The notes below the pieces were generated by a model. That model searched no databases, had not been told where the DNA came from, and worked only from the letters and a program-made list of their open reading frames with translations. A DNA stretch of 22,827 nt from a virus: the IMG/VR virus record IMGVR_UViG_3300020439_000085, positions 1 through 22,827 of that record; one strand, written 5' to 3'. The stretch's first letter is position 1; the number at the start of each line of letters is the position of its first letter. Below are positions 1 through 12,707 of this stretch, one piece after another. The position numbers and the translations under genes were made by a program.

Positions 1-98
1 ATACTTGCTTCGAGTTTAGCAACGGAACGATCTAACCTCACGATCTCATCAAAAAGCGATGTAGAGGTGTTTGGGGTCAAGAATTTGCGAATTTTCAT
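1..98 (-). CDS. Possible partial CDS running off the left edge
   Basis: An open minus-strand frame starts at an ATG at 98 and stays open to the window edge. It reads MKIRKFLTPN, then roughly ...LFDEIVRLDRSVAKLEAS. It overlaps the end of the upstream gene by about 50 bases, more than is usual here, so a GTG at 41 is an alternative start that would leave almost no overlap. The ATG at 49 that overlaps the upstream stop opens a frame that closes after three codons, so it is not the start. No function can be read from about 32 codons. It is listed because the next gene in this tightly packed operon should begin about here. Confidence 0.35.
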   Translation of the reverse strand, partial: MKIRKFLTPNTSTSLFDEIVRLDRSVAKLEAS

Positions 99-222
99 CG
101 GTGTAATGTGTTTCTGAAACGGGGACAAATTCATCTTCGGAAATGTCATAAACTGTGACATCCTGTTGTAGCGTCTCTTTGGAGCACAGTTGAAGTTGCT
201 CCAACAGTTGCAAGTAAGTCAT
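49..222 (-). CDS. Conserved-looking small phage protein, 57 aa, unknown function
   Basis: The protein starts MTYLQLLEQL and continues with a D-V-T-V-Y segment, then an acidic E-D-E-F-V-P-V segment, ending ...PKHLYIAF. This layout (short N-terminal helix, then a beta-rich 'DVTVY...DEFVPV' stretch) resembles small proteins I recall from cyanophage early regions, but I cannot name a function. The ATG at 222 is preferred over the longer frame because it overlaps the stop of the upstream gene as ATGA, the pattern seen at many junctions here. No convincing Shine-Dalgarno sequence precedes it, so translation is probably coupled to the upstream gene. Confidence 0.7.
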   Translation of the reverse strand: MTYLQLLEQLQLCSKETLQQDVTVYDISEDEFVPVSETHYTDENSQILDPKHLYIAF

Positions 223-419
223 TTTGAAATGCGGTGATAATCGATGGATTTGATGCACCAACCTGCGGCACATGTGATCTCTTCAACTAGATCATCTTCA
301 TCATCTGCTTCCCATGGACCCAGACAATCGTCGATCGTTTGTTGTTGACAATCAAGAGGAACATCGCCCTCTTCATCATCAGTGAAGTCGAACTCGATTT
401 GTGTTACGTTAAAGATCAT
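219..419 (-). CDS. Acidic small protein, 66 aa, unknown function
   Basis: The protein begins MIFNVTQIEF and is strongly acidic, with a D-D-E-E-G-D run near residue 16 and W-E-A-D-D-E-D-D-L-V-E-E near residue 40. It ends with an aromatic and cysteine-containing segment (ITCAAGWCIKSIDY). The ATG at 419 is chosen because GGAGG lies nine bases upstream; the in-frame ATG at 425 would have only three bases of spacing. It overlaps the next gene by four bases. The charge pattern would suit a protein that binds a basic partner or mimics DNA, but that is speculation. No family is recognised with confidence. Confidence 0.7.
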   Translation of the reverse strand: MIFNVTQIEFDFTDDEEGDVPLDCQQQTIDDCLGPWEADDEDDLVEEITCAAGWCIKSIDYHRISK

Positions 420-424
420 TGTCA

Positions 425-664
425 TCAACCTCCGAACATTTCGTCGAACAGATTGTCAGCGTTCTGTGCTCGTTCTTGCATTTCTGCATGTCGATCGAGT
501 TGATCACGCATGGCAATCAGTGCAGATTGTTGTGCTTTAAGTTTGTCCATTTCCACATTCAGGTAATGCAGTTTGGTGTTGATTTCACAACGGTCGAGAC
601 CATCAACCGTGGGCATATCGTACATTGTGTTGTTGATCTTGCGAGGTTGATGAATGACAGTCAT
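425..664 (-). CDS. Predicted coiled-coil protein, 79 aa, unknown function
   Basis: A short N-terminal segment (MTVIHQPRKI) is followed by a heptad-like helix over about residues 25-70 rich in L, M, A, E, K and Q (LHYLNVEMDKLKAQQSALIA). The end is ...NLFDEMFGG. This looks like a small oligomerising coiled-coil protein. It is the first gene after the duplicated 59-bp intergenic element at 685-743, whose TATATT box lies about 25 bases upstream of the start. The leader between them carries AAAGGG as a modest ribosome-binding site. The stop overlaps the ribosome-binding region of the next gene, so they are almost certainly co-transcribed. Confidence 0.7.
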   Translation of the reverse strand: MTVIHQPRKINNTMYDMPTVDGLDRCEINTKLHYLNVEMDKLKAQQSALIAMRDQLDRHAEMQERAQNADNLFDEMFGG

Positions 665-684
665 GAATGAATCCCTTTGACCCT

Positions 685-743
685 TTTAATATACATGCCA
701 CAGGCGCGCCTGGCGCGTCTGGTGGACACTTTGATCAACTGTC
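685..743 (-). promoter_or_regulatory. Intergenic element, copy A (dyad box, hairpin, TATATT box)
   Basis: Read on the minus strand, it has three parts. A 22-bp box (743-722) is centred on TTGATCAA inside near-symmetric GACA...TGTC arms. A 26-bp variable part (721-696) contains the 12-bp palindrome CAGGCGCGCCTG. An 11-bp box, TGTATATTAAA, lies at 695-685. Both boxes are identical and identically spaced in copy B at 7776-7834. The first box contains the TGA stop codon of the gene at 735-1715. The dyad looks like an operator for a dimeric protein, and TATATT could be a -10 element. The function is inferred from layout only. Confidence 0.6.
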
Positions 744-1715
744 CCCCATGGGAAATGTTATCGTTGCTCCCTTGTCCAACCATTTTTTGGCAGTGGTGAA
801 GTTTCGATAGGAAAATGCACGACGATCAACTAACTTGAACGTCCCATATCTGTTCGTCTGAACATAACCTTCATGATCACATTCTTGACCCTCAAACTGA
901 CACACAACGTTCTCATCTGCGATCATACCATCCATGATCAATTCCTTGATGTGCATGATAAGTTTGTAGAGATATGTTTGCATCTTGGTCATACCTGCAT
1001 CTGCAATATCTTTCTGTTCTCGTATGCACTTATTGACTGCAACTTTCAGTTCTTTTGCTTCCTTACCCTCAGGAAACTTCACGAAGTTTGCTGCAGCACC
1101 TGCAAGACTGATCAGGTAGTTGATTCTACGATGACGGGAAGAAATGGTGACGTTTGTGTTAAGGAACCGCACTCGATCTTGACCGAATGGTTTACCCTTC
1201 TGTCGGTTTGCATATACTTCAGGAGGAGACACATCCCAGGGGAAACCGAAGCGAACCTCTGCATCCTTGATTGTGTTACCAACGTAATGAGTATGAGCAG
1301 CGAAGACGATAGATTCTGGAGAGATTATATCAGGAAACTTGTATGTAATGCAATTAGGAGTATATTCATCATCACCACCATAACCAATAAAATCGCCTTG
1401 GTATATACCATTGAGACGAGGAAGCGAATCCATGCAAATGTGCAGGATAGATGCTACTCTCGGTTTGTCACCGTGATTCCGTTCAATATCAGCGTGAGTA
1501 TAATTGATCTTGATCTTTACTTTATTGAAGACAGACTTAGTACCTACAAAGAATCGATTGTTTTCGGGATTGATACCCCAAACAATAGCAGGCGCACCGT
1601 CATATTTGACAGAAACAGTATTATCAATGCAACGGAGAAACCGCAGCATTTCCATGAAATCTTCCCGAGAAGTTAATAAACAATCTTCGGGATGCTCGAG
1701 ATGTGTGTTTTTCAT
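735..1715 (-). CDS. Putative KxDG nucleotidyltransferase (ligase-like), 326 aa
   Basis: Several elements match the covalent nucleotidyltransferase fold of DNA/RNA ligases and capping enzymes. K37-Y-D-G40 fits motif I, whose lysine carries the nucleotide. FVGTKS follows at 56-61. GDFIGYG at 107-113 sits where motif III is expected, though the usual Glu is replaced by Asp. EGYVQT at 282-287 fits motif IV, and FKLVDR at 293-298 fits motif V. The length suits a minimal catalytic core. No separate OB-fold or DNA-binding domain is evident after motif V. It may be an unusual ligase or a derived, possibly inactive, relative; the substrate cannot be told. The ATG lies inside a perfect inverted repeat directly downstream of a TATATT box. 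The stop is embedded in the duplicated intergenic element. Confidence 0.6.
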   Translation of the reverse strand: MKNTHLEHPEDCLLTSREDFMEMLRFLRCIDNTVSVKYDGAPAIVWGINPENNRFFVGTKSVFNKVKIKINYTHADIERNHGDKPRVASILHICMDSLPRLNGIYQGDFIGYGGDDEYTPNCITYKFPDIISPESIVFAAHTHYVGNTIKDAEVRFGFPWDVSPPEVYANRQKGKPFGQDRVRFLNTNVTISSRHRRINYLISLAGAAANFVKFPEGKEAKELKVAVNKCIREQKDIADAGMTKMQTYLYKLIMHIKELIMDGMIADENVVCQFEGQECDHEGYVQTNRYGTFKLVDRRAFSYRNFTTAKKWLDKGATITFPMGDS

Positions 1716-1735
1716 GGTTTTAATATAAAACCATG
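1713..1735 (-). promoter_or_regulatory. Perfect inverted repeat spanning the start codon
   Basis: Two 10-bp arms (1713-1722 and 1726-1735) flank a 3-base centre. The downstream arm contains the ATG at 1715-1713 of the ligase-like gene. TATATT (1727-1722) overlaps the centre, and TTGCGC lies at 1750-1745, exactly 17 bp away, giving a weak sigma70-like promoter. If transcription starts 6-7 bases after TATATT, the mRNA would be nearly leaderless. If it starts upstream, the start codon would be locked in a hairpin. Confidence 0.55.
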
Positions 1736-1743
1736 CGGGAAAC

Positions 1744-1781
1744 GGCGCAAGCGCCTTTGTGACAATTTTTATATAGTCACA
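1744..1781 (-). promoter_or_regulatory. Palindrome-rich intergenic segment
   Basis: GGCGC-AA-GCGCC (1744-1755) is a 5-bp inverted repeat with a two-base centre. Immediately upstream, TGTGAC and GTCACA (1758-1763 and 1776-1781) flank a 12-base AT-rich core. The second dyad resembles an operator for a dimeric regulator. A further imperfect hairpin lies at about 1785-1813. No gene of useful length occupies 1716-1864. Confidence 0.45.
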
Positions 1782-1842
1782 CCCCTCAAAACGATGTTAT
1801 CGCGTTTTTGAGTTCTTTTTTATATAAAAAAAAATTAGACAC

Positions 1843-1866
1843 AAAAAAAGCACCCTTTCGGGTGCT
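1843..1866 (-). terminator. Strong intrinsic terminator
   Basis: On the minus strand AGCACCC pairs with GGGTGCT around a GAAA tetraloop and is followed by TTTTTTT. The stem includes the TAG stop of the gene at 1865-2071. This ends the operon that begins upstream at about 2.9 kb or further right. Confidence 0.88.
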
Positions 1867-2071
1867 ACATCTTACGAGGTTTGTGTGGCATATCCAGGTA
1901 CGCCTGATGAATCAATGCACTCAATTCATCGGCGCATTTACACCACTTTCTTCTCAGTAATTTTGTCTCTGGTTTATGTCTCGTCTCATTATTATTGAAT
2001 TGTTCGTACCACTCATGCCAAAGTTTGTTACACTCACAGTTCTTGACATTCAGATGTGGTTCTTTATACAA
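1865..2071 (-). CDS. Cysteine-containing small protein, 68 aa, TTG start
   Basis: The protein reads MYKEPHLNVKNCECNKLWHE at its start and later has a W-C-K-C-A-D segment. The two C-x-C pairs (residues about 12-14 and 44-46) with nearby His could bind zinc, although the spacing is not that of a standard zinc ribbon. The only usable start is TTG at 2071, one base after the TGA of the upstream 55-codon gene. CGGAG overlaps that gene's final codons four to five bases ahead, so translation is likely coupled. The stop codon is built into the terminator stem. No family is recognised. Confidence 0.6.
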   Translation of the reverse strand: MYKEPHLNVKNCECNKLWHEWYEQFNNNETRHKPETKLLRRKWCKCADELSALIHQAYLDMPHKPRKM

Positions 2072-2072
2072 C

Positions 2073-2240
2073 TCACTCCGATTGCAACGTGTCTAGGTAA
2101 TCCAGAAGTTTGCGGATGTTGCCATCCTGGTTTACACTCGGGTTGTCGATCATCTCTGCCATGAGAACATTAAGTGCCGTCTTTGATTGTTCTCTAATTC
2201 TCTCTTTCTGTTCGTGATCTACAAACTTTGGTTCTTCCAT
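2073..2240 (-). CDS. Small helical protein, 55 aa, unknown function
   Basis: This short frame starts at ATG 2240 and reads MEEPKFVDHEQKERIREQSK, continuing to ...LLDYLDTLQSE. It is hydrophilic and probably all-helical, with a basic-acidic helix in the first half and a leucine-containing helix at the end. The start overlaps the upstream stop as TAATG. Its own stop precedes the TTG of the next gene by one base. The exact fit between two neighbours, without gap or long overlap, is the main evidence that it is real. Function unknown. Confidence 0.7.
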   Translation of the reverse strand: MEEPKFVDHEQKERIREQSKTALNVLMAEMIDNPSVNQDGNIRKLLDYLDTLQSE

Positions 2241-2440
2241 TAGTCAAACTCTACCTGATCGAGTGGAATAGGATCTTCCTCCTGGGTGTTATATGCAGGA
2301 GGAAACATATGTGCTTCATAGAACATATTTAGCACTGATTCACACTCTTTGTAGAGATTACTACTGACTACAGTTTTGTTGATCTGGTAGTAACGAACTG
2401 CATCATAAATCAGATTCTTTTGTGAATGAGATAATTCCAT
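2240..2440 (-). CDS. Small protein, 66 aa, unknown function
   Basis: The protein begins MELSHSQKNLIYDAVRYYQI and ends in an acidic tail (EEDPIPLDQVEFD). The first two thirds look helical with several tyrosines; the tail is probably disordered. It overlaps its upstream neighbour as ATGA (ATG at 2440) and its downstream neighbour as TAATG, so it sits inside a translationally coupled run. Similar short 'NLIYDAxRYYQINK' proteins seem familiar from cyanophage genomes, but I know of no function. Confidence 0.7.
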   Translation of the reverse strand: MELSHSQKNLIYDAVRYYQINKTVVSSNLYKECESVLNMFYEAHMFPPAYNTQEEDPIPLDQVEFD

Positions 2441-2679
2441 CAGGTAGTAAACTGCTCCACAATACAGGACTCAAGTTCTTCAGCGAGGGCATATGTTGGT
2501 GCCTTGATGATATTCTCTCGCAGACGATTGTAATAGTCGTCGTTCAATCCATCATCCTCAGCAGCAATCAAGTCAAAACATTCATCATCATTTTGTGCAA
2601 CAACAACCCACATTCCGCCATACTCAGAACGAGGAAATGGGATGAAGTGATCAACAGTATAGAGAAACTTGGATGTCAT
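2440..2679 (-). CDS. Small acidic protein, 79 aa, unknown function
   Basis: The protein starts MTSKFLYTVDHFIPFPRSEY, with a beta-like segment GGMWVVVAQNDDECFDLIAA, and ends ...EELESCIVEQFTT. The pattern (a W/V-rich strand, then 'ECFDLI', then an acidic helix) suggests a compact alpha/beta fold. TAGGAAA lies just before the ATG. A good sigma70-type promoter (2703-2731) sits directly upstream, so this is probably the first gene of an early transcript running to the terminator at 1843-1866. No function can be assigned. Confidence 0.72.
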   Translation of the reverse strand: MTSKFLYTVDHFIPFPRSEYGGMWVVVAQNDDECFDLIAAEDDGLNDDYYNRLRENIIKAPTYALAEELESCIVEQFTT

Positions 2680-2702
2680 TTTCCTATGTAAAGTTTGGTA
2701 TG

Positions 2703-2731
2703 ATTTTAGTAAATTATCGACGAGATGTCAA
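2703..2731 (-). promoter_or_regulatory. Sigma70-type early promoter
   Basis: On the minus strand TTGACA (2731-2726) is followed, after exactly 17 bp, by TAAAAT (2708-2703). The predicted start at about 2696 leaves a leader of about 17 bases carrying TAGGAAA before the ATG at 2679. The -35 box lies inside the end of the upstream gene. Host-like promoters of this type are expected for early genes of T4-like phages. Confidence 0.75.
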
Positions 2732-2878
2732 CTTAATCTTTGGCGGTTTAGGTGTCTTAAATGTATCAGGTGTGATCTTTATATAATCATCATAGAAGTC
2801 AACATACTCCATCAACATGTAAACCATGTCATAGAGTTCTTCAACTCTTTGTTCAAGATCTTCGACCTTTTTACTCAT
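2714..2878 (-). CDS. Small protein with N-terminal coiled coil, 54 aa
   Basis: The frame starts at ATG 2878, overlapping the upstream stop as ATGA, and reads MSKKVEDLEQRVEELYDMVY. It continues through a tyrosine-rich segment to a basic, proline-containing tail (KTPKPPKIKLTSRR). The heptad pattern in residues 4-25 suggests dimerisation, and the basic tail could contact nucleic acid. The gene is too short for a usual 60-codon cutoff, but the coupled start and clear amino-acid bias support it. The early promoter at 2703-2731 overlaps its last codons. Function unknown. Confidence 0.7.
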   Translation of the reverse strand: MSKKVEDLEQRVEELYDMVYMLMEYVDFYDDYIKITPDTFKTPKPPKIKLTSRR

Positions 2879-3171
2879 AGGACAAATGCCAATTCAAGTG
2901 GATTAAGATGATCAAGATTCAACTGCATTGCAGTGAACGGAGTTGTGTCCCTGATGTCTACTACCTTACCAACTTTTTTGGAGTTGATAGGAGCGTGGTA
3001 CTGTTGTTTTTTGGTGTCATAGAATCCCCAGATAGTACGATGGGGATTATGATCATTGAACAAATACCCAGGACGATATACAAGGTGGATTGCAATAACA
3101 TTACGTTTAAAGCAAACCTCCTCGTAGAAATGATCGTCTGTTGGTGGTTCGTGGGGAAATCCATCGATCAT
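2875..3171 (-). CDS. Hypothetical protein, 98 aa
   Basis: The protein starts MIDGFPHEPPTDDHFYEEVC and continues with a strand-rich stretch (AIHLVYRPGYLF), then HRTIWGFYDTKKQQYHAPIN, ending NPLELAFVL. The 'WGFYDTKKQQYHAPINSKKVG' region reads like a small beta-sheet fold. ATG 3171 is chosen because it overlaps the upstream TGA as ATGA; a TTG five codons earlier is less likely. The downstream neighbour also starts on an ATGA overlap. It belongs to a coupled run of four small genes (2714-3631). No family is recognised. Confidence 0.7.
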   Translation of the reverse strand: MIDGFPHEPPTDDHFYEEVCFKRNVIAIHLVYRPGYLFNDHNPHRTIWGFYDTKKQQYHAPINSKKVGKVVDIRDTTPFTAMQLNLDHLNPLELAFVL

Positions 3172-3380
3172 CGCTCCACTTTCCAATCAGTATTACCTTT
3201 AGCAGGAACCCAGAAATAGTAAGACTTATTCAGTGACTGAAGATACAACCACTTTTCACCCTCATGTTCACGAACAATTTCTACAACACAAGTGTGAAAC
3301 AGATCCATCTCATTAGCAAAGCGATTCTTTGCTTTACGAGACAGAGGAGTGACACAAACTCGTTTGGTTTTGGTAGTCAT
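3168..3380 (-). CDS. Hypothetical protein, 70 aa
   Basis: The true start is most likely the ATG at 3380, overlapping the upstream TGA as ATGA, giving MTTKTKRVCVTPLSRKAKNR. The N-terminal third is strongly basic. It is followed by a strand-turn-strand segment (HTCVVEIVREHEGEKWLYLQ) and an aromatic cluster (SYYFWVPAKG). A small basic-plus-beta protein like this could bind RNA or DNA, but no defining motif is visible. It is probably made from the same transcript as its neighbours on both sides. Confidence 0.68.
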   Translation of the reverse strand: MTTKTKRVCVTPLSRKAKNRFANEMDLFHTCVVEIVREHEGEKWLYLQSLNKSYYFWVPAKGNTDWKVER

Positions 3381-3631
3381 CAAAGATCGAGAATAGTTTG
3401 GAAGTTTACAATTTCGGACACCACAACTTGTTGGGTGTCTACATTGAGAACAACATGTTCCCATTGTGTGTCATCAGCACCACGAGCATACATCTCCAAC
3501 GATGTATCATTCACACGTTTGAAGAATGTTTTATCGGGTACAGGATTCTGTCGGAGTTGTTTCCGACCACGGAGATTGCCTGTTGAATTGTAAGCAAATC
3601 CGAGTTGAATTAGTTTGTCAGGTACACTCAT
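3380..3631 (-). CDS. Hypothetical protein, 83 aa
   Basis: The protein begins MSVPDKLIQLGFAYNSTGNL, followed by a basic patch (RGRKQLRQNPVPDKTFFKRV) and a beta-like C-terminal part (EHVVLNVDTQQVVVSEIVNF). It starts 12 bases after the preceding gene, with no strong Shine-Dalgarno sequence. The next gene starts on its stop codon. Nothing in the sequence identifies a family. The order of small basic and acidic genes around a helicase suggests a role early in infection, by context only. Confidence 0.68.
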   Translation of the reverse strand: MSVPDKLIQLGFAYNSTGNLRGRKQLRQNPVPDKTFFKRVNDTSLEMYARGADDTQWEHVVLNVDTQQVVVSEIVNFQTILDL

Positions 3632-3643
3632 TTGCGACTGAAG

Positions 3644-4054
3644 TTATTGTAGGGCATCGAGCAACGGGTTCCCCGTGGATCGGGACGGTTTGGTGATTGT
3701 CACTCCCTTAGATTTAGGCGTGTTCCTGGTAGTCTGTCTCACCGTGGTTTTGACTCTCTCAGATCCCTTGCCACCACTGGGGTGCAGTAATTGTTTATTT
3801 TGTTTTTTTGTTGATTTTGGTTTGGCAGGTGTCCTAGGTCGTCTCTGCGGTTTAGACTGCGACTTTTTCATTTTATCTAACTTACGCATAGCAATATCGA
3901 ATGACGTTGCTAACTCCAGTTGTTTCCCGTTGTGAATTATCATCCACTTTTTACCGCATGGAAGTACACACCACATCCCATCTGGAGAGATATAATCTCT
4001 CACAGTTTTTGGATGTAGCATACTGGAGTTGTGGTTGTGATACCTATCCTTCAT
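3644..4054 (-). CDS. Protein with very basic C-terminal tail, 136 aa
   Basis: Residues 1-60 contain a compact segment (PDGMWCVLPCGKKWMIIHNG) that may form a small beta domain, followed by a helix (ATSFDIAMRKLDKMKK). From about residue 65 the chain is low-complexity and very rich in K, R, P, S and T (SQSKPQRRPRTPAKPKSTKK onward). It ends NPLLDALQ. Such a tail is typical of disordered nucleic-acid-binding regions. The ATG overlaps the helicase stop as ATGA, so the two proteins may work together, perhaps with this one tethering the helicase to DNA. That role is inferred from position only. Confidence 0.7.
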   Translation of the reverse strand: MKDRYHNHNSSMLHPKTVRDYISPDGMWCVLPCGKKWMIIHNGKQLELATSFDIAMRKLDKMKKSQSKPQRRPRTPAKPKSTKKQNKQLLHPSGGKGSERVKTTVRQTTRNTPKSKGVTITKPSRSTGNPLLDALQ

Positions 4055-5235
4055 CGACGAATTTCACTGATAGCAGGTTGACCTTGTTCAAAGACGGTAT
4101 CAACGACCGCCTGAACCTTTCTGGAGGTGGTGATACCCACAGAGTCATAAACAGGGACGCAGACCAATCCAAAGGTCTTAGAAGTGTCACCCAGACGGAT
4201 AACTCGTCCGATAGATTGAGAGATGCCAATGTAATCCATGTTGCGAAGGAAAATTACCGACTCCAAACCATTTACGTTGATACCTTCAGACAAGATAGAG
4301 TGATGCAGAACCACAAACTTTTTGCTGGGATCTTTACCCCATGCGTTCAAAGTATCGAAGAACACTTCACGGTTCACTTTCTGACCGTCGATGATAGCAC
4401 CAGTCTTACTGGTGATTGTCATCCAAGACATGCCACGTTTGGCACACTCAAGTGCGAAGTCACTATCAGTCAGAAGACCAACGATTTGTTTGGTAGTGCG
4501 AGCACAGACCAGAACTTTCTCAGTCTCTTGATCATCAATAGTCTGCATCAGAAAGTCACAGTCACGGGACCAGACTTTCATCTTATCTTGCACCATGTCC
4601 AGTTGTTTGACTACAACTTTAGGAGGAAGAATGTAACCACCTTCAACCAACTCAGGTGCAGGAACATTGACCAGAACTTGACCATAAACTGCGGTGTCAT
4701 TCATCCCTGGTTTCTTGATAGTCAGGGAGTGTTTTGGAGTCGCAGTGAAGAAGTAACAACGGTCAGATTCTGCAGCAAAGTGTTCAGTAGGACCGAAGAA
4801 GTTACGTTGCACGGAGTTGTGTGCTTCGTCAAAGTAAATGGTGTTTACTTCAATGTCTGCATCAACAACACGATGGAGAGAATGATAGGTGGTAAAGATA
4901 ATGCAGTCTTCACCCATACTCCGTGCAGTGTTAGCGAAGACGTGAATCTTCTCGGAGTTGGTGGTAGAGAAGTGATGAGTTTCACCACTGTGAACGTGCA
5001 TCACATGCGTATATGTAGAGGTGATAACCTCCAGAAACTCACTGCAAAGTTGTTCTGCAAGGAGAATACGAGGAGCAACAACAACAGTGGTGTGACCACA
5101 CTTAGACTGTTGAACGTGTGCAGTATCTTGAATCATACACATCGTTTTGCCACCACCAGTAGGAACAATAATTTGTCCCTTAGGATAAGTTTGCATCCGC
5201 TCAAGGATACGAACTTGGTGAGGACGGAGTTGCAT
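4051..5235 (-). CDS. SF2 DNA/RNA helicase, UvsW-like, 394 aa
   Basis: Helicase motifs, numbered from the ATG at 5235, are clear. They are a Q-like start (LRPHQ, 3-7), motif I VPTGGGKT (24-31), motif II DEAH (136-139), motif III TATP (164-167), motif V SEGINVNG (316-323) and motif VI QSIGRVIR (340-347). Both RecA-like lobes are present. T4 UvsW, the nearest named relative in layout, is longer and has an extra N-terminal domain that is absent here, so a second phage helicase type is equally possible. UvsW-type enzymes remodel forks and R-loops. The ATG at 5235 is preferred over a start at 5289, which lies inside a hairpin upstream of a TATATT box. It is coupled to the basic-tail protein downstream. 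Confidence 0.9.
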   Translation of the reverse strand: MQLRPHQVRILERMQTYPKGQIIVPTGGGKTMCMIQDTAHVQQSKCGHTTVVVAPRILLAEQLCSEFLEVITSTYTHVMHVHSGETHHFSTTNSEKIHVFANTARSMGEDCIIFTTYHSLHRVVDADIEVNTIYFDEAHNSVQRNFFGPTEHFAAESDRCYFFTATPKHSLTIKKPGMNDTAVYGQVLVNVPAPELVEGGYILPPKVVVKQLDMVQDKMKVWSRDCDFLMQTIDDQETEKVLVCARTTKQIVGLLTDSDFALECAKRGMSWMTITSKTGAIIDGQKVNREVFFDTLNAWGKDPSKKFVVLHHSILSEGINVNGLESVIFLRNMDYIGISQSIGRVIRLGDTSKTFGLVCVPVYDSVGITTSRKVQAVVDTVFEQGQPAISEIRR

Positions 5236-5248
5236 TGATCGCGTTCGT

Positions 5249-5295
5249 TTGTATGAATACAATATAAATCCCTCACCGCAGTACGGCAAGGGATT
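5249..5295 (-). promoter_or_regulatory. Hairpin, TATATT box and dyad upstream of the helicase
   Basis: On the minus strand AATCCCT and AGGGATT (5295-5289 and 5273-5267) form a stem with an inner CCG/CGG pairing. TATATT follows at 5266-5261 and overlaps a perfect inverted repeat, TTGTAT-TC-ATACAA (5262-5249). The hairpin may end the transcript of the gene at 5325-5852, TATATT may be a -10 box for the helicase, and the dyad could be an operator. This is the fourth hairpin-then-TATATT arrangement in the left module. Confidence 0.5.
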
Positions 5296-5324
5296 CGGAG
5301 GGATTGATTGATTAGACCTACTTA

Positions 5325-5852
5325 TCAGACCAAGTAGGAAGACTCATAGTTGATAAGTTCTTCAGGAACTAGATCTTCAAAGACATCACGGACCACACCT
5401 TTCTCCTGGTGAAAGAGTACAATCCCAAGGTGATCATACTTCTGGTGTGTAGCAACATGGATGAAGAATTGTCCATCCTTGTTTTCAGTGAGTTTACTCA
5501 GATCGTTGTTCTCTTTAGAAGTAACTTCAATAGTCTGACAACACTTAAGGAAGAGAGTCTTGAACTTATCGAAGTCAGTCAACCAAACATCTGGATTGTC
5601 GTAGACCATCCTTGCAACAAATTGAGGAGACAAACAATGATCTTTTGTTGTCTTATTACCCTTACGTTTTGCTTGCATTGCCTTGACACTGATGAACCCA
5701 GTTTTGTTAGGTTCACCTGCACAGAATACCTGATCATACAGGATTCGTGTCATTGAACGTTGACGATTGGAGTTTGCATTAGTCCAGAAAGGTAAGACAC
5801 CTTTCATCGCGTGAAATGCAATCAACGCGAATTCTTCCCATCGATTACTCAT
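5325..5852 (-). CDS. Hypothetical protein, 175 aa, partner of the ParB-like gene
   Basis: The protein begins MSNRWEEFALIAFHAMKGVL. Its middle part has K-T-T-K-D-H-C-L-S-P-Q-F (about residues 67-78), then a run of helices with paired cysteines (FLKCCQTIEV), and ends in a beta-like domain (FFIHVATHQKYDHLGIVLFH). The 'KDHxLSPQ' signature and following helix seem to recur in phage proteins, but I cannot tie it to a known activity. The start overlaps the stop of the ParB-like gene as ATGA, so the two are coupled. A functional pair, for example a DNA-binding or nuclease partner, is an inference. Confidence 0.72.
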   Translation of the reverse strand: MSNRWEEFALIAFHAMKGVLPFWTNANSNRQRSMTRILYDQVFCAGEPNKTGFISVKAMQAKRKGNKTTKDHCLSPQFVARMVYDNPDVWLTDFDKFKTLFLKCCQTIEVTSKENNDLSKLTENKDGQFFIHVATHQKYDHLGIVLFHQEKGVVRDVFEDLVPEELINYESSYLV

Positions 5853-6889
5853 GCGAACTCCTCCATGTTGTCAACTTCAGAGATCTGAGGAACGAAATCG
5901 AAGATAACATCTCGAACAGGAAAGATGCGTTCCTCTTTAACTGCATCAGCAATCTTGAGAATCCTGTCAAGCATTTCCTGCATCATCTTCTCCTGTTTGT
6001 ACTTTCGGATCTGTGGAATCTTTTCCGAAGTAGACTTGTTCACAGAACAGATGTTGTGGACTTTATGAACACCAGAGTTGTTGAGGAGAACCTCACAAGA
6101 ATCAAAGAAACAACGAGGATCGTAGTCAAGATCTTGCAGTCCACCTTTACCCTTTCCTCCCTTGAAAGTCTTGGATTGGTAGACTATACCATCCACAGGA
6201 ATAATCTGTGTACGGGAAGAGAATTTGATGTTGGGTTTGTTATCTTCACACCACTTTCTGCGGTCCTTATCTTCATAGGACTTGACTGGTGTGATCTTAC
6301 CGTGTTTTTCACGGAGTCGTTGACGCAGAAGAGGAAACTCATTGCTCTTCTGTTGGAGACGAATAAGACGAGCGTTGATAGACTTTTCGTCGTTGATGTC
6401 AATCATACCTTTGTCAACCATTTGGGACAAAGTAAGAATAACATCAGTCTGAGTACGAGGTGCTTTCACATACTCATCATCTTCATTGTTCTCGTTTGAT
6501 TGGAAGATCATCTCATCTTCTTCCGTCTCAAACTTAACAACTGCAACGAAGATTGTATCGCGTCCAGCAGCAATGTGTGCCTGATAACGGTGTTCACCCG
6601 TCAACAGTTCATACAGATTGTTACCCAGATCTTTTACAGTGGGTTGTTCATAAATGAACCTGTACTGACCGTTCTCGATACGGTCAACAAATGCTGCAAC
6701 TTTTTCTTGATCAATTCCTTCAGCACGTACCTTGTTTGTCAGTTTGTTTCCAGTACGTTGCAAAACGTTTGTGCATTGAATCTCCTTAAACTCAAAAGAT
6801 AAGAGTCCTTCACCTTTTGGTGTGGAGTTTGCACTAGTAACTAGGTCAACCTTTTGTTGAAAGGTCAAACAATCGATTTGGTTTTTCAT
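5849..6889 (-). CDS. ParB/Srx-fold domain protein, 346 aa
   Basis: Residues about 30-136 match the N-terminal ParB/sulfiredoxin-like fold: an initial strand, a helix (QEKVAAFVDRIENG), then YELLTGEHRYQAHIAAG, where G98-E-H-R101 with the following helix is the family's phosphate-binding signature. S-N-E-N-N at 131-135 resembles the later ParB motif. The remaining 200 residues are helical and highly charged, with a cysteine-containing segment near residue 260, and do not match the standard ParB helix-turn-helix clearly. Family members include NTPases, nucleases and DNA-modification proteins, so the activity is open. It is probably not a plasmid-type partition protein, because no parA is visible. 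The next gene starts on its stop codon. Confidence 0.75.
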   Translation of the reverse strand: MKNQIDCLTFQQKVDLVTSANSTPKGEGLLSFEFKEIQCTNVLQRTGNKLTNKVRAEGIDQEKVAAFVDRIENGQYRFIYEQPTVKDLGNNLYELLTGEHRYQAHIAAGRDTIFVAVVKFETEEDEMIFQSNENNEDDEYVKAPRTQTDVILTLSQMVDKGMIDINDEKSINARLIRLQQKSNEFPLLRQRLREKHGKITPVKSYEDKDRRKWCEDNKPNIKFSSRTQIIPVDGIVYQSKTFKGGKGKGGLQDLDYDPRCFFDSCEVLLNNSGVHKVHNICSVNKSTSEKIPQIRKYKQEKMMQEMLDRILKIADAVKEERIFPVRDVIFDFVPQISEVDNMEEFA

Positions 6890-7002
6890 GATGATAGTAA
6901 CCGTGAGTTTGCATTATGCGTGACTTGTTCCCTGTCGGGATCGTCGTCGGTCGCGGTGGGGAGGAGTTTAGAGTCTTCACCCCATCAGACTTGCGTATCC
7001 TA

Positions 7003-7146
7003 TCAGAAGGAACGGAGGAGTGCAAGCGTTTCCCTGTCCAGTTCTTCCTTCACTCCACACTCAGGAAGCAACCATTCTTCACTGCCAGACTCCATGAAAT
7101 CTTCATAGAGTTCATCAAAATCGTTGTAGTTCTTAGGATCAGACAT
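7003..7146 (-). CDS. Small acidic protein, 47 aa
   Basis: The frame starts at ATG 7146, overlapping the end of the upstream 43-codon gene by eight bases, and reads MSDPKNYNDFDELYEDFMES. It ends ...LDRETLALLRSF. The composition is acidic and aromatic, consistent with one or two amphipathic helices. No Shine-Dalgarno sequence is evident, so coupling to the upstream gene is likely. The space between its stop and the ParB-like start (6890-7002) contains an imperfect hairpin at about 6957-6982 but no convincing gene. Function unknown. Confidence 0.6.
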   Translation of the reverse strand: MSDPKNYNDFDELYEDFMESGSEEWLLPECGVKEELDRETLALLRSF

Positions 7147-7270
7147 AGATGTAATCAGGGTGTTTTTCTTTGAAAGCTTTAACTTGTTCTTCAGTTTTGA
7201 GGAATACTGATAGTGAAGTCTTGGGATGTTCCTTAAAGTAATACTTTACTTGGATCATTTTAGTTTCCAT
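7139..7270 (-). CDS. Very small protein, 43 aa
   Basis: The start ATG at 7270 has a near-perfect ribosome-binding site, AGGAGG, eight bases upstream, the best in the left half of the window. The protein reads METKMIQVKYYFKEHPKTSL and continues with a basic helix (KTEEQVKAFKEKHPDYIYV). It overlaps the end of the gene at 7260-7679 by 11 bases and the following small gene by eight. The strong site suggests high expression independent of coupling. The K/E-rich alpha/beta pattern does not identify a family. Confidence 0.7.
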   Translation of the reverse strand: METKMIQVKYYFKEHPKTSLSVFLKTEEQVKAFKEKHPDYIYV

Positions 7271-7679
7271 CGGTAATACCTCCTGCGGGGATTGCAACCT
7301 GTTGCTTGTATGTATCGCTCCAGGTCTTAGTATCATAACAGGTCCAACCTGCACTTGTAAACACATAACCAAACTCTTCACCATTCTCAATGAAATCCAT
7401 CAGAGAATCGTGAATGATCGGTGCATTGTTCACGATAGATTCACCACGGGAAGTGTAGTGGAGAGGACCATTTTCGTCAAGAGTTTCATTGTTCCAACCT
7501 GCATTAGTCCAGGTGCAGGACATATCACCACCGTCGATCAGTTCGGAAACTTTATCAGCGGAGGAGAAATAGTCACGGAGAACGCGACCATTGAACTCAG
7601 GATAACCATCGTAGTGACAATAGACAGACAGAATAGAACCGTCTGCGAGTTGCTTACCGATGCGTGAACGAGTGCCCAT
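7260..7679 (-). CDS. Conserved phage protein of unknown function, 139 aa
   Basis: The protein begins MGTRSRIGKQLADGSILSVY, then CHYDGYPEFNGRVLRDYF, then ELIDGGDMSCTWTN, and later has an EEFGYVFTSAGWTCYDTKTW segment. The combination of an MGTRSRIG start, a 'YxHYDGYP' motif and a 'LIDGGDMS' motif is one I recognise as widespread in T4-like phages and cyanophages, always without known function. The repeated G-W and aromatic positions suggest a compact beta-sandwich. It is the first gene after intergenic element copy B, with a leader of about 90-100 bases. Confidence 0.8.
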   Translation of the reverse strand: MGTRSRIGKQLADGSILSVYCHYDGYPEFNGRVLRDYFSSADKVSELIDGGDMSCTWTNAGWNNETLDENGPLHYTSRGESIVNNAPIIHDSLMDFIENGEEFGYVFTSAGWTCYDTKTWSDTYKQQVAIPAGGITDGN

Positions 7680-7775
7680 GATACTTAGGAATGAGTGTGA
7701 GAGGCGGAGAACTGTTTGTCGTTCCCTCTTACTGTTTTGCCTCTCGGTGTGCGTCTCAGGTCTCCCCTCGACTCA
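7680..7775 (-). other. Leader region without a gene
   Basis: Between copy B of the intergenic element and the ATG at 7679 there is a stretch of about 95 bases with no usable frame. GAGAGGC and GCCTCTC arms (7699-7705 and 7739-7745) could pair across a long loop, and the loop carries AAACAGT twice. It may be an untranslated leader with structure; this is weak. Confidence 0.35.
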
Positions 7776-7834
7776 TTTAATATACACGGGTTGGACTACC
7801 GTGGCGAGGGTAGTGGACACTTTGATCAACTGTC
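7776..7834 (-). promoter_or_regulatory. Intergenic element, copy B (dyad box, hairpin, TATATT box)
   Basis: The 22-bp dyad box (7834-7813) and the 11-bp TGTATATTAAA box (7786-7776) are identical to those of copy A at 685-743, and the 26-bp spacing is identical. The variable middle differs in sequence but again forms a hairpin (ACTACC/GGTAGT arms around an eight-base loop). As in copy A, the preceding gene ends inside the dyad box with Asp-Ser-stop. Confidence 0.6.
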
Positions 7835-7996
7835 ACACAGGGTCGCGGACTCCATCCCGATCACCTCTTGCCCTCTCTTGATCATTTTCATCATCGCTTC
7901 CTGGGCAGATTCCATCGTAAAATATACTGCCCACCTTTTTTCATCTCCAAGGTAATATCCTACCTTGTAATACTCATTAGAAAACTTAGGTCTCAC
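7826..7996 (-). CDS. Small protein, 56 aa, GTG start
   Basis: The frame starts with GTG at 7996, overlapping the upstream TGA as GTGA, and reads VRPKFSNEYYKVGYYLGDEK. It continues RWAVYFTMESAQEAMMKMIK and ends MESATLCDS. An aromatic strand-turn-strand start followed by a methionine-rich helix suggests a compact alpha/beta protein. Its last codons and TGA form part of the duplicated dyad box at 7813-7834. The gene accounts for most of the otherwise empty interval 7826-7992. No family is recognised. Confidence 0.65.
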   Translation of the reverse strand: MRPKFSNEYYKVGYYLGDEKRWAVYFTMESAQEAMMKMIKRGQEVIGMESATLCDS

Positions 7997-8187
7997 AAGA
8001 TTACTTGTCCACCACAGAATGCTTGAACAGTACGCAAGAATGCTTTATCGGACTCACGAACTGCGTCCTTCTCGTCTCTAGTTTCACTCCAATATGTCGC
8101 GGTACTTCCTTTGTTTTCTTCGATAATCACAGATCGAATTTCTGCTCGGACCCAATCACGGAGCAGTTGAAACTTTTCAGGGGTCAT
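7993..8187 (-). CDS. Small helical protein, 64 aa
   Basis: The likely start is the ATG at 8187 (MTPEKFQLLRDWVRAEIRSV). A GTG at 8211 would add eight residues, but neither start has a clear ribosome-binding site. The protein is mainly helical and charged (ETRDEKDAVRESDKAFLRTV) and ends AFCGGQVIL. It lies immediately downstream of asnB, in the same direction. The 12 bases at 8206-8217 just ahead of it copy those at the asnB start, so this gene may originally have followed the zinc-ribbon gene directly. Function unknown. Confidence 0.65.
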   Translation of the reverse strand: MTPEKFQLLRDWVRAEIRSVIIEENKGSTATYWSETRDEKDAVRESDKAFLRTVQAFCGGQVIL

Positions 8188-8205
8188 TGATTTGTTGTTA
8201 GTTAC

Positions 8206-8217
8206 CCACACATATTA
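8206..8217. repeat. 12-bp direct repeat, asnB end copy
   Basis: CCACACATATTA on the plus strand is identical to 9851-9862. The copies lie exactly 1645 bases apart and mark the end and start of asnB. The copy at the start is explained by the asnB stop-start junction and the MCG codons; this one has no such coding reason. Confidence 0.75.
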
Positions 8218-9858
8218 GGGCGTAAAGCAAAATGTGTCAAGGAAAAACTCAGTGTTTATATACTTCCACTCAGTATCTCTGTCGTTGTATGGAGACTGGA
8301 CATAACTTCCGTAGATGTCGTAACTTTTGTCAATGCCATTCTCTAAGTAACGATACATTTCATTAGGATGCCCACTAAATCCAATCTTAGCGTATGGTCT
8401 ACGTTTGTAGTGATTCTCGAAGATTTTACCGAGTGGTCTCTTGTTTTCTAACAGATATGGTGGAGAATTGATTGCATAGGTCACAATATCTTTGCGTGTG
8501 AATGGTGTCCTGGTCTCAATTCCATGACTAGAACCAATCAAATCTCCAGACATTAGAGTGGCATTAGGCATCTGGTGGAAGAAATCTACAAAGGAACATG
8601 CTTTAATGTGTGCATCTTTTGTAGAGTATAGGTTATCAATGAAGAACTGGAAGGCATACTCATAGTCTTCCTGTATATTCTCAGAGAATGATAGTTTGAA
8701 GTTATTTCTTACTGCCATGGTGTACTCTGAACGTACACAATTCTGATAGTATTTGTATCCTAGGAATAATTCGTCTGCACCTTCACCACCATAGAGAATT
8801 GATCCAGGTTCTAACATCTCATACAGTAGATTTGCAGAGGCAAAATCATGCGATGGTATGGGAGAACAACATAACTTAAGAGTCTGTAGGTAAGACTCAT
8901 AATAACTATCACGATCTATGTTCCTAACTAACTGACCTGTGTAGAGTTTATCGAACAGTTTATCAGCGAACAGAGAAACCGAATCTTTCTCATCAAACGT
9001 AAGTGTGATCCCTCGTACTAACTGAGTACCAATGTTCTCCAGTAGTTTAGTAACTATCGACGAATCTGTACCGCCAGATACTGTTGAATAGACGTTCACA
9101 TGTGGACGAACACTTGACTGCATCTTCTTGAGAGTTCTTATCAGTAACTCTTCAAGATAGTGTGTGTATTGTCCTGATGTTGTCTTGTTTAGTTCTCTTG
9201 TAAGTTCTGAGTTCAGATACTTCCTAGGTGTCCACACTTGTGTGACTGAAGAATACTTATTGTAGTGAAACTTACCACCTGGGGGTACTTGATAGATCCC
9301 ATTGATTGCAGTGGAGTTTGAGATATAATGTCTCGTTACAAAATAATCTTTCAGTGCCACCTCATTCAAGGTCACTGGTTCATCAAACTCCTCCATAACT
9401 TTGAGGATGAATGATGGCGTAGAACCAAGAATTAAGACTCTGGGATTATCATAATAGAAGATCCTTTTCTCTCCCTGAATATCTCTCAGGGCAGTAATAT
9501 CTAACCATTGTCCCTGTCTCTGTGCCTGAACAACAGCAAACATTCCATCACATCGACCCAGAACCAGTTGTTTAGAACTGCACTTCTGCAACATTTCGAT
9601 GTCACTATCATACTCATGTTCATCATATATCTCCCCGTTATAGAGAGTTACATCAAAGTTCTGAGGTAGACTAGCAAACCCATCATCACGATCTGGTTCT
9701 GTTTGAATCGCCAAGACAGATTGATACATGTAAATATCATCTCCCATGTAATGTGTTGCATGGGAGGGACCACGAAGTCCTAAATCATTTTCAGCGATCT
9801 TGATAAGATTGTGAGGAATTTTGTCTTTTTTTGAGAAAACTAGTCCAAATCCACACAT
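8215..9858 (-). CDS. asnB: Asparagine synthetase, glutamine-hydrolysing (class B), 547 aa
   Basis: The enzyme transfers the amide nitrogen of glutamine to aspartate, using ATP, in the cytoplasm. After removal of Met1, Cys2 of MCGFGLVF is the class II amidotransferase nucleophile. R29-G-P and YNGEIY (73-78) belong to the glutaminase pocket, and R125-D..G (RDIQGEKRIFYY) is also conserved. The synthetase domain has the PP-loop SGGTDSS (261-267) and YGGEGADELFLGY (356-368). Later HGIETRTPF also fits the family. The length is typical and the gene looks intact. It follows the zinc-ribbon gene by one base and probably uses the promoter at 10180-10208. asnB-like genes occur in some cyanophages; specialised amidotransferase homologues that modify other substrates remain possible. 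Confidence 0.93.
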   Translation of the reverse strand: MCGFGLVFSKKDKIPHNLIKIAENDLGLRGPSHATHYMGDDIYMYQSVLAIQTEPDRDDGFASLPQNFDVTLYNGEIYDEHEYDSDIEMLQKCSSKQLVLGRCDGMFAVVQAQRQGQWLDITALRDIQGEKRIFYYDNPRVLILGSTPSFILKVMEEFDEPVTLNEVALKDYFVTRHYISNSTAINGIYQVPPGGKFHYNKYSSVTQVWTPRKYLNSELTRELNKTTSGQYTHYLEELLIRTLKKMQSSVRPHVNVYSTVSGGTDSSIVTKLLENIGTQLVRGITLTFDEKDSVSLFADKLFDKLYTGQLVRNIDRDSYYESYLQTLKLCCSPIPSHDFASANLLYEMLEPGSILYGGEGADELFLGYKYYQNCVRSEYTMAVRNNFKLSFSENIQEDYEYAFQFFIDNLYSTKDAHIKACSFVDFFHQMPNATLMSGDLIGSSHGIETRTPFTRKDIVTYAINSPPYLLENKRPLGKIFENHYKRRPYAKIGFSGHPNEMYRYLENGIDKSYDIYGSYVQSPYNDRDTEWKYINTEFFLDTFCFTP

Positions 9859-9862
9859 ATTA
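9851..9862. repeat. 12-bp direct repeat, asnB start copy
   Basis: Identical to 8206-8217. It contains the TAA of the zinc-ribbon gene, one spacer base and the first codons of asnB. Confidence 0.75.
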
Positions 9863-10171
9863 CCACTTACCTATGGGACACGATGTATTGATAAATTTTA
9901 CCTTAACTTTCATATAACATCCACACTTCCTACACCTATTTTGTTGTTTATCGTAATAATCACAACGACCACACTCTTCAATCCTAAGTTTGCTTATCTC
10001 TTCAGATACTAATATACCTTTGCCTTCTTTAGTACCCTGATTGACAGACTCAGCAAACTTTTTGAAACCCTCAATCTGTGTCCAAAAGTCTGGATAATCG
10101 TTCCCGTCAAGGAGTTGTGGTAACTCACTATCCCTCTTCTTATTTCTAAACAAGTTACGGATAAAACGCAT
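9860..10171 (-). CDS. Zinc-ribbon-like small protein, 103 aa
   Basis: The C-terminal third carries six cysteines in a regular pattern: C67-x2-C70, C80-x2-C83-x-C85 and C98, ending SCPIGKW. This fits a metal-binding ribbon found in many phage small proteins of unknown role. The N-terminal part is basic (MRFIRNLFRNKKRD) and the middle is helical. It begins 1-3 bases after the predicted transcription start, so its mRNA may be leaderless. asnB follows by one base. A role in DNA or protein binding is plausible but unproven. Confidence 0.78.
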   Translation of the reverse strand: MRFIRNLFRNKKRDSELPQLLDGNDYPDFWTQIEGFKKFAESVNQGTKEGKGILVSEEISKLRIEECGRCDYYDKQQNRCRKCGCYMKVKVKFINTSCPIGKW

Positions 10172-10179
10172 AGTAATAC

Positions 10180-10208
10180 AGTATAGAGAAAAAAAGAGGG
10201 ATAGTCAA
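10180..10208 (-). promoter_or_regulatory. Sigma70-type promoter for the zinc-ribbon/asnB operon
   Basis: TTGACT (10208-10203) and TATACT (10185-10180) are separated by exactly 17 bp. The predicted start falls only a few bases before the ATG at 10171, which implies a leaderless or nearly leaderless mRNA. The -35 box lies in a perfect 12-bp palindrome, GTCAATATTGAC (10204-10215), which could be an operator. Confidence 0.72.
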
Positions 10209-10210
10209 TA

Positions 10211-10240
10211 TTGACACACCCCCCTAATAATGTATATAAT
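10211..10240 (+). promoter_or_regulatory. Perfect-consensus promoter on the opposite strand
   Basis: On the plus strand TTGACA (10211-10216) and TATAAT (10235-10240) are separated by 18 bp, a 12/12 match to the sigma70 consensus. It shares the palindrome 10204-10215 with the minus-strand promoter, so the two are divergent. Nothing on the plus strand downstream looks like a gene, so any transcript would be antisense to the late genes at 10.26 kb onward. Confidence 0.6.
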
Positions 10241-10254
10241 AACTCTGTGGAGTT
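10241..10254 (-). terminator. Weak hairpin, possible terminator
   Basis: AACTC and GAGTT flank a CACA loop, followed on the minus strand by an AT-rich stretch (ATTATATAC). It lies 8 bases after the stop of the 59-codon gene and ahead of the asnB-operon promoter. The stem is short and the T-run interrupted. Confidence 0.35.
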
Positions 10255-10261
10255 TCAAAGA

Positions 10262-10441
10262 TTATCCTTTGACTGTATGTAATGCTTCTAGAGCACCAGA
10301 CAGTTTGATGAATTCTTCTTTCTTAGTGTTAAATGCTCTTTCGGTTTCGAGCAGTTCTTCGCGAAGTGCTTCAAGTCTCGATGTCAGATCAGTGATCATA
10401 CCTTCGACATCAGCACCAGTAGTTTCTGTTGGTTTTGCCAT
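10262..10441 (-). CDS. Small coiled-coil protein, 59 aa
   Basis: The frame starts at ATG 10441 and reads MAKPTETTGADVEGMITDLT. A long charged helix follows with leucine and isoleucine at heptad positions (SRLEALREELLETERAFNTK, then KKEEFIKLSGALEALHTVKG). It is predicted to be a single coiled coil from residue 13 to the end. A CCTAAATA late-type motif lies 31 bases upstream, overlapping the stop of the preceding oxygenase. This suggests its own late expression, perhaps as a minor virion component or fibre chaperone; that role is inferred from position. Confidence 0.75.
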   Translation of the reverse strand: MAKPTETTGADVEGMITDLTSRLEALREELLETERAFNTKKEEFIKLSGALEALHTVKG

Positions 10442-10471
10442 GATAGAGAATAATAAGTAACTCAGACATTT

Positions 10472-11029
10472 TTATTTAGGTAGTCCCAGAGAAGGTCTTC
10501 CATCAAATAGTAAATCTTTATTGGGTCCGTTTGCATCAACCCAGTGCATAAAACATTGAAGTAACCAATCAGATTCTATAGGTTCTCTCCAGTGATAGTA
10601 TTTACAACCTTCATAAATGCACAGATCTCCTCTCTCTAGAGTAAAACTTTCAGCACCATTTTTTGAAGGAGTTTTACTAAAGTAAATTGGCGACAGTGGT
10701 TGATCTGAAGGATGTGCTAGAGTAAGAGTTGCAGAGTATTCACATTCTGGTCTATCAGTGTGTACTTTTAACTCATCACCTTTCTGATAAAATCTCACAT
10801 AAGTGTATGTTGGTAGTAAATGTTTGCCTAACATACATGAAATATGATCTGTAGATAGTTTTAGAATCGTATCAGTGAAAGGATCTCCATAGATATTCAT
10901 ACCTCCATGGTTTGTATTTGCATCAGAACCAAACTGAACATCTTTACCAGAGGATAATCTGGTGATAAAATATTGTTCAGCAAACTTACTGAACTCTAAT
11001 CCTAAAAATCCTTTAATTATTTTGTTCAT
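10472..11029 (-). CDS. 2OG-Fe(II) oxygenase family protein, 185 aa
   Basis: H90-T-D92 provides the HxD iron-binding pair, and H146 (KYYHWREP) is the likely third ligand. LSPIYFSK and SFTLERGDLCIYEG are typical jelly-roll strands between them. The family normally uses an Arg or Lys after the distal His to bind 2-oxoglutarate. No Arg or Lys appears at the usual spacing here (L-L-Q-C-F instead), so co-substrate binding may differ. Such enzymes hydroxylate proteins, nucleobases or metabolites. The ATG overlaps the stop of another oxygenase gene as ATGA, so the two are made together. The region is clearly more AT-rich than the early module. Confidence 0.8.
   Translation of the reverse strand: MNKIIKGFLGLEFSKFAEQYFITRLSSGKDVQFGSDANTNHGGMNIYGDPFTDTILKLSTDHISCMLGKHLLPTYTYVRFYQKGDELKVHTDRPECEYSATLTLAHPSDQPLSPIYFSKTPSKNGAESFTLERGDLCIYEGCKYYHWREPIESDWLLQCFMHWVDANGPNKDLLFDGRPSLGLPK
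10473..10480 (-). promoter_or_regulatory. Late-type promoter motif CCTAAATA
   Basis: This resembles the T4 late box TATAAATA. It sits 31 bases before the ATG of the 59-codon gene, the same distance class as the motifs at 13848 and 21184. Confidence 0.5.
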
Positions 11030-11688
11030 TTTAACTTATCTCCAATAACCCAACCAACTAATGAATAACGAATTCCTTTAGTTACTGGTGTCACTTCATG
11101 TAAGGTATGTGAGGGGAATATAGTTATGGATCCTCTGTCTTTTGATGCTATATCTGATCCGCCGTTTAGAAATAAATCACCACCTTGATAAGTTGGGTGT
11201 GATAATTGAACTGAGAAACTTAATTTTCTTTGAGTTACAGTTACATTATTTCCTAGAAAAGAATCTAAGTGTGGTCTATAATATCCTTTGTATTCTGAGT
11301 GATACTCACCAAACTGTAATGTTTGTATCGAACGTATATCATATTCCCAATTAGAATCATTGACTCCACAGATAATACGAGTCAATTTTTCATACAACCA
11401 ACTATTAAATGAATTTGGTTTTAACCAAGAAACCTTAGATCTTCTCACTTCAGAGTCAACTACATAATCACCATTTGAGAAAACAGTTCCTAAATGACCA
11501 TTAGATTGTTTTCCTGTAAATATAATTCTATTGATTTCATCTTCAGAAAAAATATCAGGAACTGTTACATATGTTGGATTATTAAATGACATTAAAGGCC
11601 ATTCATCTGAATCAGATTGATTTAATTCTAAATCTGGAATAATATAATCCAGACTGTCTACATCATAGTTAAAATAGTCAGATACCAT
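11026..11688 (-). CDS. 2OG-Fe(II) oxygenase, prolyl-hydroxylase-like, 220 aa
   Basis: The C-terminal half matches the prolyl 4-hydroxylase/PKHD group: YYRPHLDSF with H140-x-D142, the double-stranded helix core (RKLSFSVQLSHPTYQGGDLF), the third ligand H197 in FPSHTLHEVTPV, and R207 in KGIRYSLVGW for 2-oxoglutarate. The N-terminal 45 residues are acidic and of unknown role. All catalytic residues are present, so activity is expected. The gene overlaps both neighbours (11 bases upstream, ATGA downstream) in the operon behind the late promoter at 12700. A protein substrate such as the nearby collagen-like fibre is an attractive but untested idea. Confidence 0.88.
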   Translation of the reverse strand: MVSDYFNYDVDSLDYIIPDLELNQSDSDEWPLMSFNNPTYVTVPDIFSEDEINRIIFTGKQSNGHLGTVFSNGDYVVDSEVRRSKVSWLKPNSFNSWLYEKLTRIICGVNDSNWEYDIRSIQTLQFGEYHSEYKGYYRPHLDSFLGNNVTVTQRKLSFSVQLSHPTYQGGDLFLNGGSDIASKDRGSITIFPSHTLHEVTPVTKGIRYSLVGWVIGDKLK

Positions 11689-12699: not shown

Positions 12700-12707
12700 T
12701 ATTTATT
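12700..12707 (-). promoter_or_regulatory. Late promoter AATAAATA
   Basis: It matches the NATAAATA form of the T4-like late box, 22 bases before the ATG at 12677. It lies within the last codons of the preceding gene. Confidence 0.65.

Follow-up and report, generated by a model that had tools for sequence, protein, structure and literature searches.

Several promoter systems of T4-type phages offer a comparison for the element studied here. For the marine cyanophage Syn9, Doron et al. reportedly found in 2016 a novel regulatory element that serves early genes, with host-like promoters serving middle genes, and T4-type phages are said, in work attributed to Arbiol in 2010 and Comeau in 2014, to carry promoter-early-stem-loop (PeSL) cassettes. 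Early promoters of T4 rely on strong -35/UP-type contacts and on the Alt protein, and its middle promoters carry a MotA box, TGCTT, centred at -30 (PMC2988021). Cyanomyoviruses are without homologues of alt, modA, modB, motA and asi, and their early/middle control has been called unclear (PMC2984593). We analyzed a 22,827-nucleotide stretch of viral DNA (the window; IMG/VR record IMGVR_UViG_3300020439_000085, positions 1 to 22,827), in which a preliminary description had singled out two similar 59-bp intergenic blocks (685-743 and 7776-7834) as a possible undescribed middle-gene control element of cyanophages. The element that these blocks represent is real and widespread and almost certainly functional. 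We estimate a probability of about 75% that both blocks are promoters from a cyanophage-specific family, at which the host polymerase would act on the -10 hexamer and a protein, probably a dimer, on an upstream dyad, and which would serve early small genes. As a phage promoter the element is ordinary in kind; its dyad architecture is distinctive.

Both blocks lie on the minus strand, and their layout is as the preliminary description had stated: the 22-mer GACAGTTGATCAAAGTGTCCAC is identical at 743-722 and 7834-7813, the 11-mer TGTATATTAAA is identical at 695-685 and 7786-7776, and the gap between them is exactly 26 bp in both copies (696-721 and 7787-7812), with sequences that are unlike. No third copy of the 22-mer was present in the record at up to 3 mismatches. 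Scored with a three-class weight matrix of the family, copy 1 reached 63.1 and copy 2 reached 59.1 when compared to a maximum of 7.2 in the control (56 randomized chunks from genomes of relatives), excluding a chance origin of both copies; the same scan found only these two strong copies in the window. In copy 1, the dyad is an operator-like box at 722-746 (-65 to -41 from the predicted start), supported by the conservation profile of the family and ending in the right arm GTGTCCAC at 722-729. The copy 1 spacer (696-721) covers the -35 region, in which a canonical TTGACA is absent, and can form a modest stem-loop; beyond it, TGTATATTAAA (685-695) holds a sigma-70-type -10 hexamer, TATATT at 688-693, with an adjacent TG, and the leader AGGGTCAAAGGGATTCATTC (665-684) contains a ribosome-binding-type AAAGGGA, transcription being predicted to start near 681 from the distance to the -10. 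Copy 2 is built in the same order, with the operator-like dyad at 7813-7837 (right arm GTGTCCAC at 7813-7820), a spacer with a 6-bp stem (7787-7812), TGTATATTAAA at 7776-7786 with its sigma-70-type TATATT at 7779-7784, and a leader, GAGTCGAGGGGAGACC... (7680-7775), that is long and partly structured (GAGAGGC/GCCTCTC stem), unlike the usual short one. The upstream genes of both copies end in Asp-Ser-TGA within the box, again in agreement with the earlier claim. A DUF6267 gene (Pfam E 1.4e-81) at 735-1715 runs into the box of copy 1, its stop codon occupying 735-737, and the frame upstream of copy 2, which is open in five related contigs and ends in ...MESATLCDS-stop, has its stop codon at 7826-7828. 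New genes begin after each TATATT box, at 664 and 7679, also as had been described.

Relatives carry further copies, and the proposal of a repeated cyanophage control element with fixed box spacing now holds far beyond two copies. An exact search with the box and TATATTAAA retrieved nine IMG/VR contigs, in every one of which the span was 59 nt, and a scan with GTGTCYAC-N(23-29)-TGTATATTAA matched at least 118 viral contigs; among the matches listed, the spacer was 26 bp in 115 of 124 distinct instances (27 in six, 25 in two and 29 in one). The consensus of a sister class occurred at 1,007 places in 307 of 50,697 phage records, and 306 of these 307 are named Synechococcus, Prochlorococcus or cyanophage. 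Essentially all matches are in cyanophages, and the family is restricted to marine T4-like ones. No element was found in T4, Ma-LMM01 or the podovirus P-SSP7, and S-RSM4, P-SSM4, P-SSM2, P-SSM7, P-HM2 and S-PM2 carry the dyad with a TATAAT/TATACT-type -10 and without the common leader. Scanning the genomes of 84,980 bacterial and archaeal species with a pattern longer than the dyad gave seven matches, which is about chance level. Three of the seven hold the complete element, in contigs of metagenome-assembled genomes (MAGs): L178, L182 and L184, binned as Euryarchaeota TMED129 and Rhodobacteraceae NAT686. Since it is the complete cyanophage element that they carry, these contigs are probably cyanophage contamination. 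A host origin of the element was rejected, as the genome-scan matches were near chance and the true elements among them lay only in these three phage-like contigs.

For the anatomy of the family we numbered positions from the -10 hexamer, its first base being -12, and used two alignments: 74 non-redundant copies, and 240 copies picked by their -10 and leader with the box ignored. The element is about 75 bases long. Read on the minus strand, each copy shows an imperfect dyad, about GTGNCAGTT-N4-AA(C/G)TGTCCAC, at -65 to -41 (in compact form, GTGNCAGTT-N4-AACTGTCCAC), within which TGNCAGT(T) lies near -64 to -56 and positions -48 to -41 hold GTGTCCAC or a variant of it. Conservation among the 74 copies peaks at CAGT, GTGTCCAC, TGTATATTAA and the leader. 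The dyad centre (-55 to -51) has just 0.12-0.54 bits, so that TTGATCAA, the centre that the preliminary description had pointed to as operator-like, is not what the family keeps. Right arms in the 240-copy set were most often GTGTCCAC (62 copies), followed by TGTCCAC(T/C) (26), CTGTCCAC (21), TGGCACAC (17), GTGGCACA (9) and others. Complementarity between the arms was 4.86 of 8 when compared to 4.19 ± 0.05 for shuffled left flanks, and it hardly altered when arms were swapped between copies (4.76 ± 0.07). We read this pattern as two versions of one half-site and not as a compensated stem; the lack of arm covariation speaks for an operator in DNA more than for a stem in RNA, and the upstream box does behave as expected of an operator for a dimeric protein, as had been suggested.

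The copies have a -10 hexamer of the sigma-70 type (TANNNT), an element that was included in the search pattern, at a constant position ahead of the start codon. The hexamer occurs as TATATT, the class of the window copies, as TATNNT, such as TATTCT, and as NATACT. Copies of the NATACT class have TTG at -35 in 41 of 62 cases (shuffle maximum, 7) and TG at -15/-14, forming an extended -10, and those of the TATNNT class have TTG at -34 in 39 of 76 (shuffle maximum, 9). The TATATT class showed no excess of a canonical TTGACA at -35 (3 copies vs. 2.6 expected); its C at -32 is nearly invariant. The leader AGAGTCAAAGGAA follows the -10 in most relatives and is conserved to about +9. An open reading frame (ORF) starting with ATG lies downstream in 233 of 242 contexts, the ATG being a median of 18 nt from the predicted start, and the upstream reading frame stops at a median of -60, indicating that the element takes up the gap from the stop codon of one gene to the start codon of the next.

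We then considered where the sites lie in complete genomes. Syn9 has seven, all at 43.2-53.1 kb (predicted starts near 43177, 44839, 46354, 47269, 48623, 51065 and 53061) and none in the rest of its 177 kb; Sf-FS3 has six (37.0-49.4 kb); and S-SCSM2R has seven (41.0-54.2 kb) together with two weak matches elsewhere (13.2 and 14.6). Additional sites were present in the regions of Bellamy and Syn19 that were examined. The site-bearing regions are clusters of small uncharacterised genes around the helicase, and the complete genomes of Syn9, S-SCSM2R and Sf-FS3 had no confident site by the genes for DNA polymerase, the clamp, uvsX/recombination, nrd/nucleotide metabolism or the virion. The restriction of confident sites to the small-gene cluster argues against the original interpretation of the blocks as an element for middle genes as T4 has them, and fits early genes; judged by position, the genes served would be early ones of the host-takeover type. 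The element reported for Syn9 is likewise said to serve early genes of a marine T4-like cyanophage, and the motif described here, present in Syn9 itself, probably overlaps with it. The word "undescribed" in the preliminary description is for this reason doubtful. The motif was not found in the literature searched, a search that did not take in the 2016 Syn9 study and the two PeSL papers.

From this arrangement we infer a promoter in which the -10 (TATATT here, TATNNT or NATACT elsewhere) would be read by host RNA polymerase with the housekeeping sigma factor, while a protein, probably a dimer, would bind the dyad, which sits at a fixed distance immediately before the -35, and would recruit or stabilize the polymerase. 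Transcription would start about 7 nt past the -10, usually yielding a short leader, AGAGUCAAAGGAA, that carries the ribosome site for the gene that follows, and the transcribed genes would be small, of the host-takeover type and expressed early. An activator is more likely than a repressor given the location of the dyad upstream of the -35, and the strict 26-bp distance speaks for a protein that touches the polymerase directly; because the -35 hexamer is missing from the TATATT class, the dyad-bound protein should matter most there. Candidates for this protein are a host factor, a phage protein injected on infection and an early phage product. A more tentative extension is that in marine T4-like cyanophages, which lack Alt, MotA and AsiA, one dimeric activator, made by the host or brought in with the virion, could drive most host-takeover genes via dyad promoters, some of them lacking a -35, a promoter logic that would be new as a family; we regard this as possible and well short of probable.

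Several observations weigh against such a promoter. Conservation is weak in the left arm, whose distance to the right arm shifts by a base, features seldom expected of a strict dimer site; the conservation of the -10 and leader in the 240-copy set is there by construction; the lack of a canonical -35 in the TATATT class could imply another sigma requirement; and the leader is conserved more than a promoter requires, so that a function of the leader may contribute.

Compared with T4, the promoter proposed here resembles middle promoters in combining a phage-specific box with a sigma-70 -10 and a dispensable -35, and differs from them in having, in place of the MotA box, a dyad at -65 to -41. 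About 12 bp before the -10, where the TGCTT of a MotA box would lie, the 74 copies have a C/A-rich consensus (near -30), and their conserved box is GTGTCCAC at -48 to -41. With T4 early promoters it shares the host sigma-70 -35/-10 logic; the differences are a G/C-containing dyad upstream and the absence of alt from cyanomyoviruses (PMC2984593). PeSL cassettes are alike in being promoter units that recur among the small genes of a variable region, many of them with a stem-loop, and an S-PM2 stem-loop at 11369-11391 that has been named in the PeSL context (PMC4503421) is the spacer of one element of the present family. In contrast to those cassettes, most of the present copies lack a terminator, their stem-loop sits inside the promoter spacer, and a dyad lies upstream at a fixed spacing.

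Hairpins had been claimed for both window copies, and both spacers are indeed foldable, but only modestly so relative to dinucleotide shuffles (copy 1: -14.1 kcal/mol, z -1.46; copy 2: -6.8 kcal/mol, z -1.94). Over the 74 copies, the same shuffles gave a mean z of -0.30, with z < -1.5 in 20%. Spacers beat mononucleotide shuffles in folding, stems of -8 kcal/mol or lower occurring in 23-29% of spacers vs. 6-10% of shuffled ones, and the paired positions are not the same between copies. The spacer stem-loop is an optional part, outside the conserved core. Compensatory divergence of the hairpin, as initially suggested, was rejected, with tests of covariation and folding in arms and spacer coming out negative or weak. 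The model to which it belonged, a middle-gene operator joined to an RNA hairpin selected for its shape and not its sequence, is right about the dyad and the fixed spacing and draws on the foldable window spacers, but it is improbable given that many copies have no hairpin, that no pairing register is common to them, that the dyad arms lack pairing covariation and that complete genomes have no confident copies at genes of the T4 middle type. We would give just as little weight to an element acting at the RNA level, with the dyad forming a stem-loop at the 3' end of the upstream mRNA and AGAGUCAAAGGAA a processed common 5' leader. The dyad does lie at the upstream stop codon and folds in copy 1 (-11.9 kcal/mol, z -2.97), and the leader is strongly conserved; against this, the copy 2 dyad folds weakly (z -1.33), the arms do not covary between copies, and the strict 26-bp spacing to a sigma-70-type -10, together with positioned -35 half-elements, speaks for recognition as DNA. 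Rfam scans gave no family at gathering score in window positions 1-12000, and nothing but tRNAs in regions of four relatives.

Another possibility, which we consider unlikely, is a PeSL-like recombination cassette combining terminator and promoter, in which the stem-loop would end upstream transcripts, the -10 would start the next one and the repeats would shuffle genes. The setting of repeated units amid small genes in a variable region suits it, as do the excess of strong stems, the clear stem-plus-T terminator and promoter copies in S-PM2, Syn19 and Bellamy, and the variety of genes that precede one downstream gene family (e.g., 36 upstream families for 54 members). However, only 11 of 240 spacers resemble intrinsic terminators, most copies thereby lacking the terminator stem-loop of a PeSL cassette; neighbours turn over hardly more across the element (0.89) than at the next gene boundary, where no element lies (0.80); and recombination has no need of a strict distance between dyad and -10. 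A recent local duplication or chance repeat would account for there being only two strong copies in the window, but its probability is negligible in view of the hundreds of cyanophage copies with fixed geometry and diverged spacers. A duplication confined to the two copies was ruled out by the copies in relatives.

If the promoter reading is right, the element could illuminate early/middle control in cyanomyoviruses, which have no homologues of alt, motA or asi, the control that a review called unclear (PMC2984593). Being compact and alignable over hundreds of genomes, it would allow exact predictions of start sites and could serve as DNA bait for the regulator, and in uncultured cyanophages it would be usable as a marker of likely early transcription units. 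The natural classes with and without a -35 would allow the dyad to be tested directly as a substitute for the -35.

The first gene after copy 1 (425-664, minus strand; 79 amino acids; phrog_3146) has no assigned function, and the element also precedes its homologue in Sf-FS3. Likewise without an assigned function is the first gene after copy 2 (7260-7679, minus strand; 139 amino acids; phrog_1987), a type of gene that follows the element in 14 non-redundant contexts. Copy 2 belongs to the minority of copies with a long, partly structured leader (fold of 7680-7775: -26.7 kcal/mol, z -2.11), and this leader is a possible cis-acting RNA. Similar leaders precede phrog_1987 genes in relatives, the sequence of the inner stem varying among them. 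In a relative of copy 2 (L004:7368-7428), the upstream gene differs until about 45 bp before the element and is identical from there on, a switch that reads as a recombination junction near the element.

Upstream of the DUF6267 gene, at 1722-1780 on the minus strand, lies a possible third, strongly diverged element, with a GTGAC-N12-GTCAC dyad (1759-1780), a GGCGCTTGCGCC stem and a TATATT (1722-1727) only a few bases from the ATG of that gene. It fell under the threshold in the family matrix scan, and weak matches to the element (15.4 and 18.8) lie at the equivalent place by the DUF6267 orthologues in S-SCSM2R and Bellamy; the site is perhaps a diverged element with a near-leaderless start.

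The same run of genes on the minus strand encodes an asparagine-synthase-like protein (8215-9858; Pfam E 4.7e-20) as well as a protein with weak similarity to ParB (5849-6889; PHROG E 7e-6). Between genes, at 10127-10205, there is a 25-nt inverted repeat with 84% complementarity and a loop of 29 nt, which gave a weak match to a microRNA family in the Rfam scan, far under the gathering score. Adjoining a 2228-codon ORF is one of 370 codons (12703-13815, minus strand) with glycine-rich repeats of 9-nt period, the product of which looks like a collagen-type or tail-fibre-associated protein.

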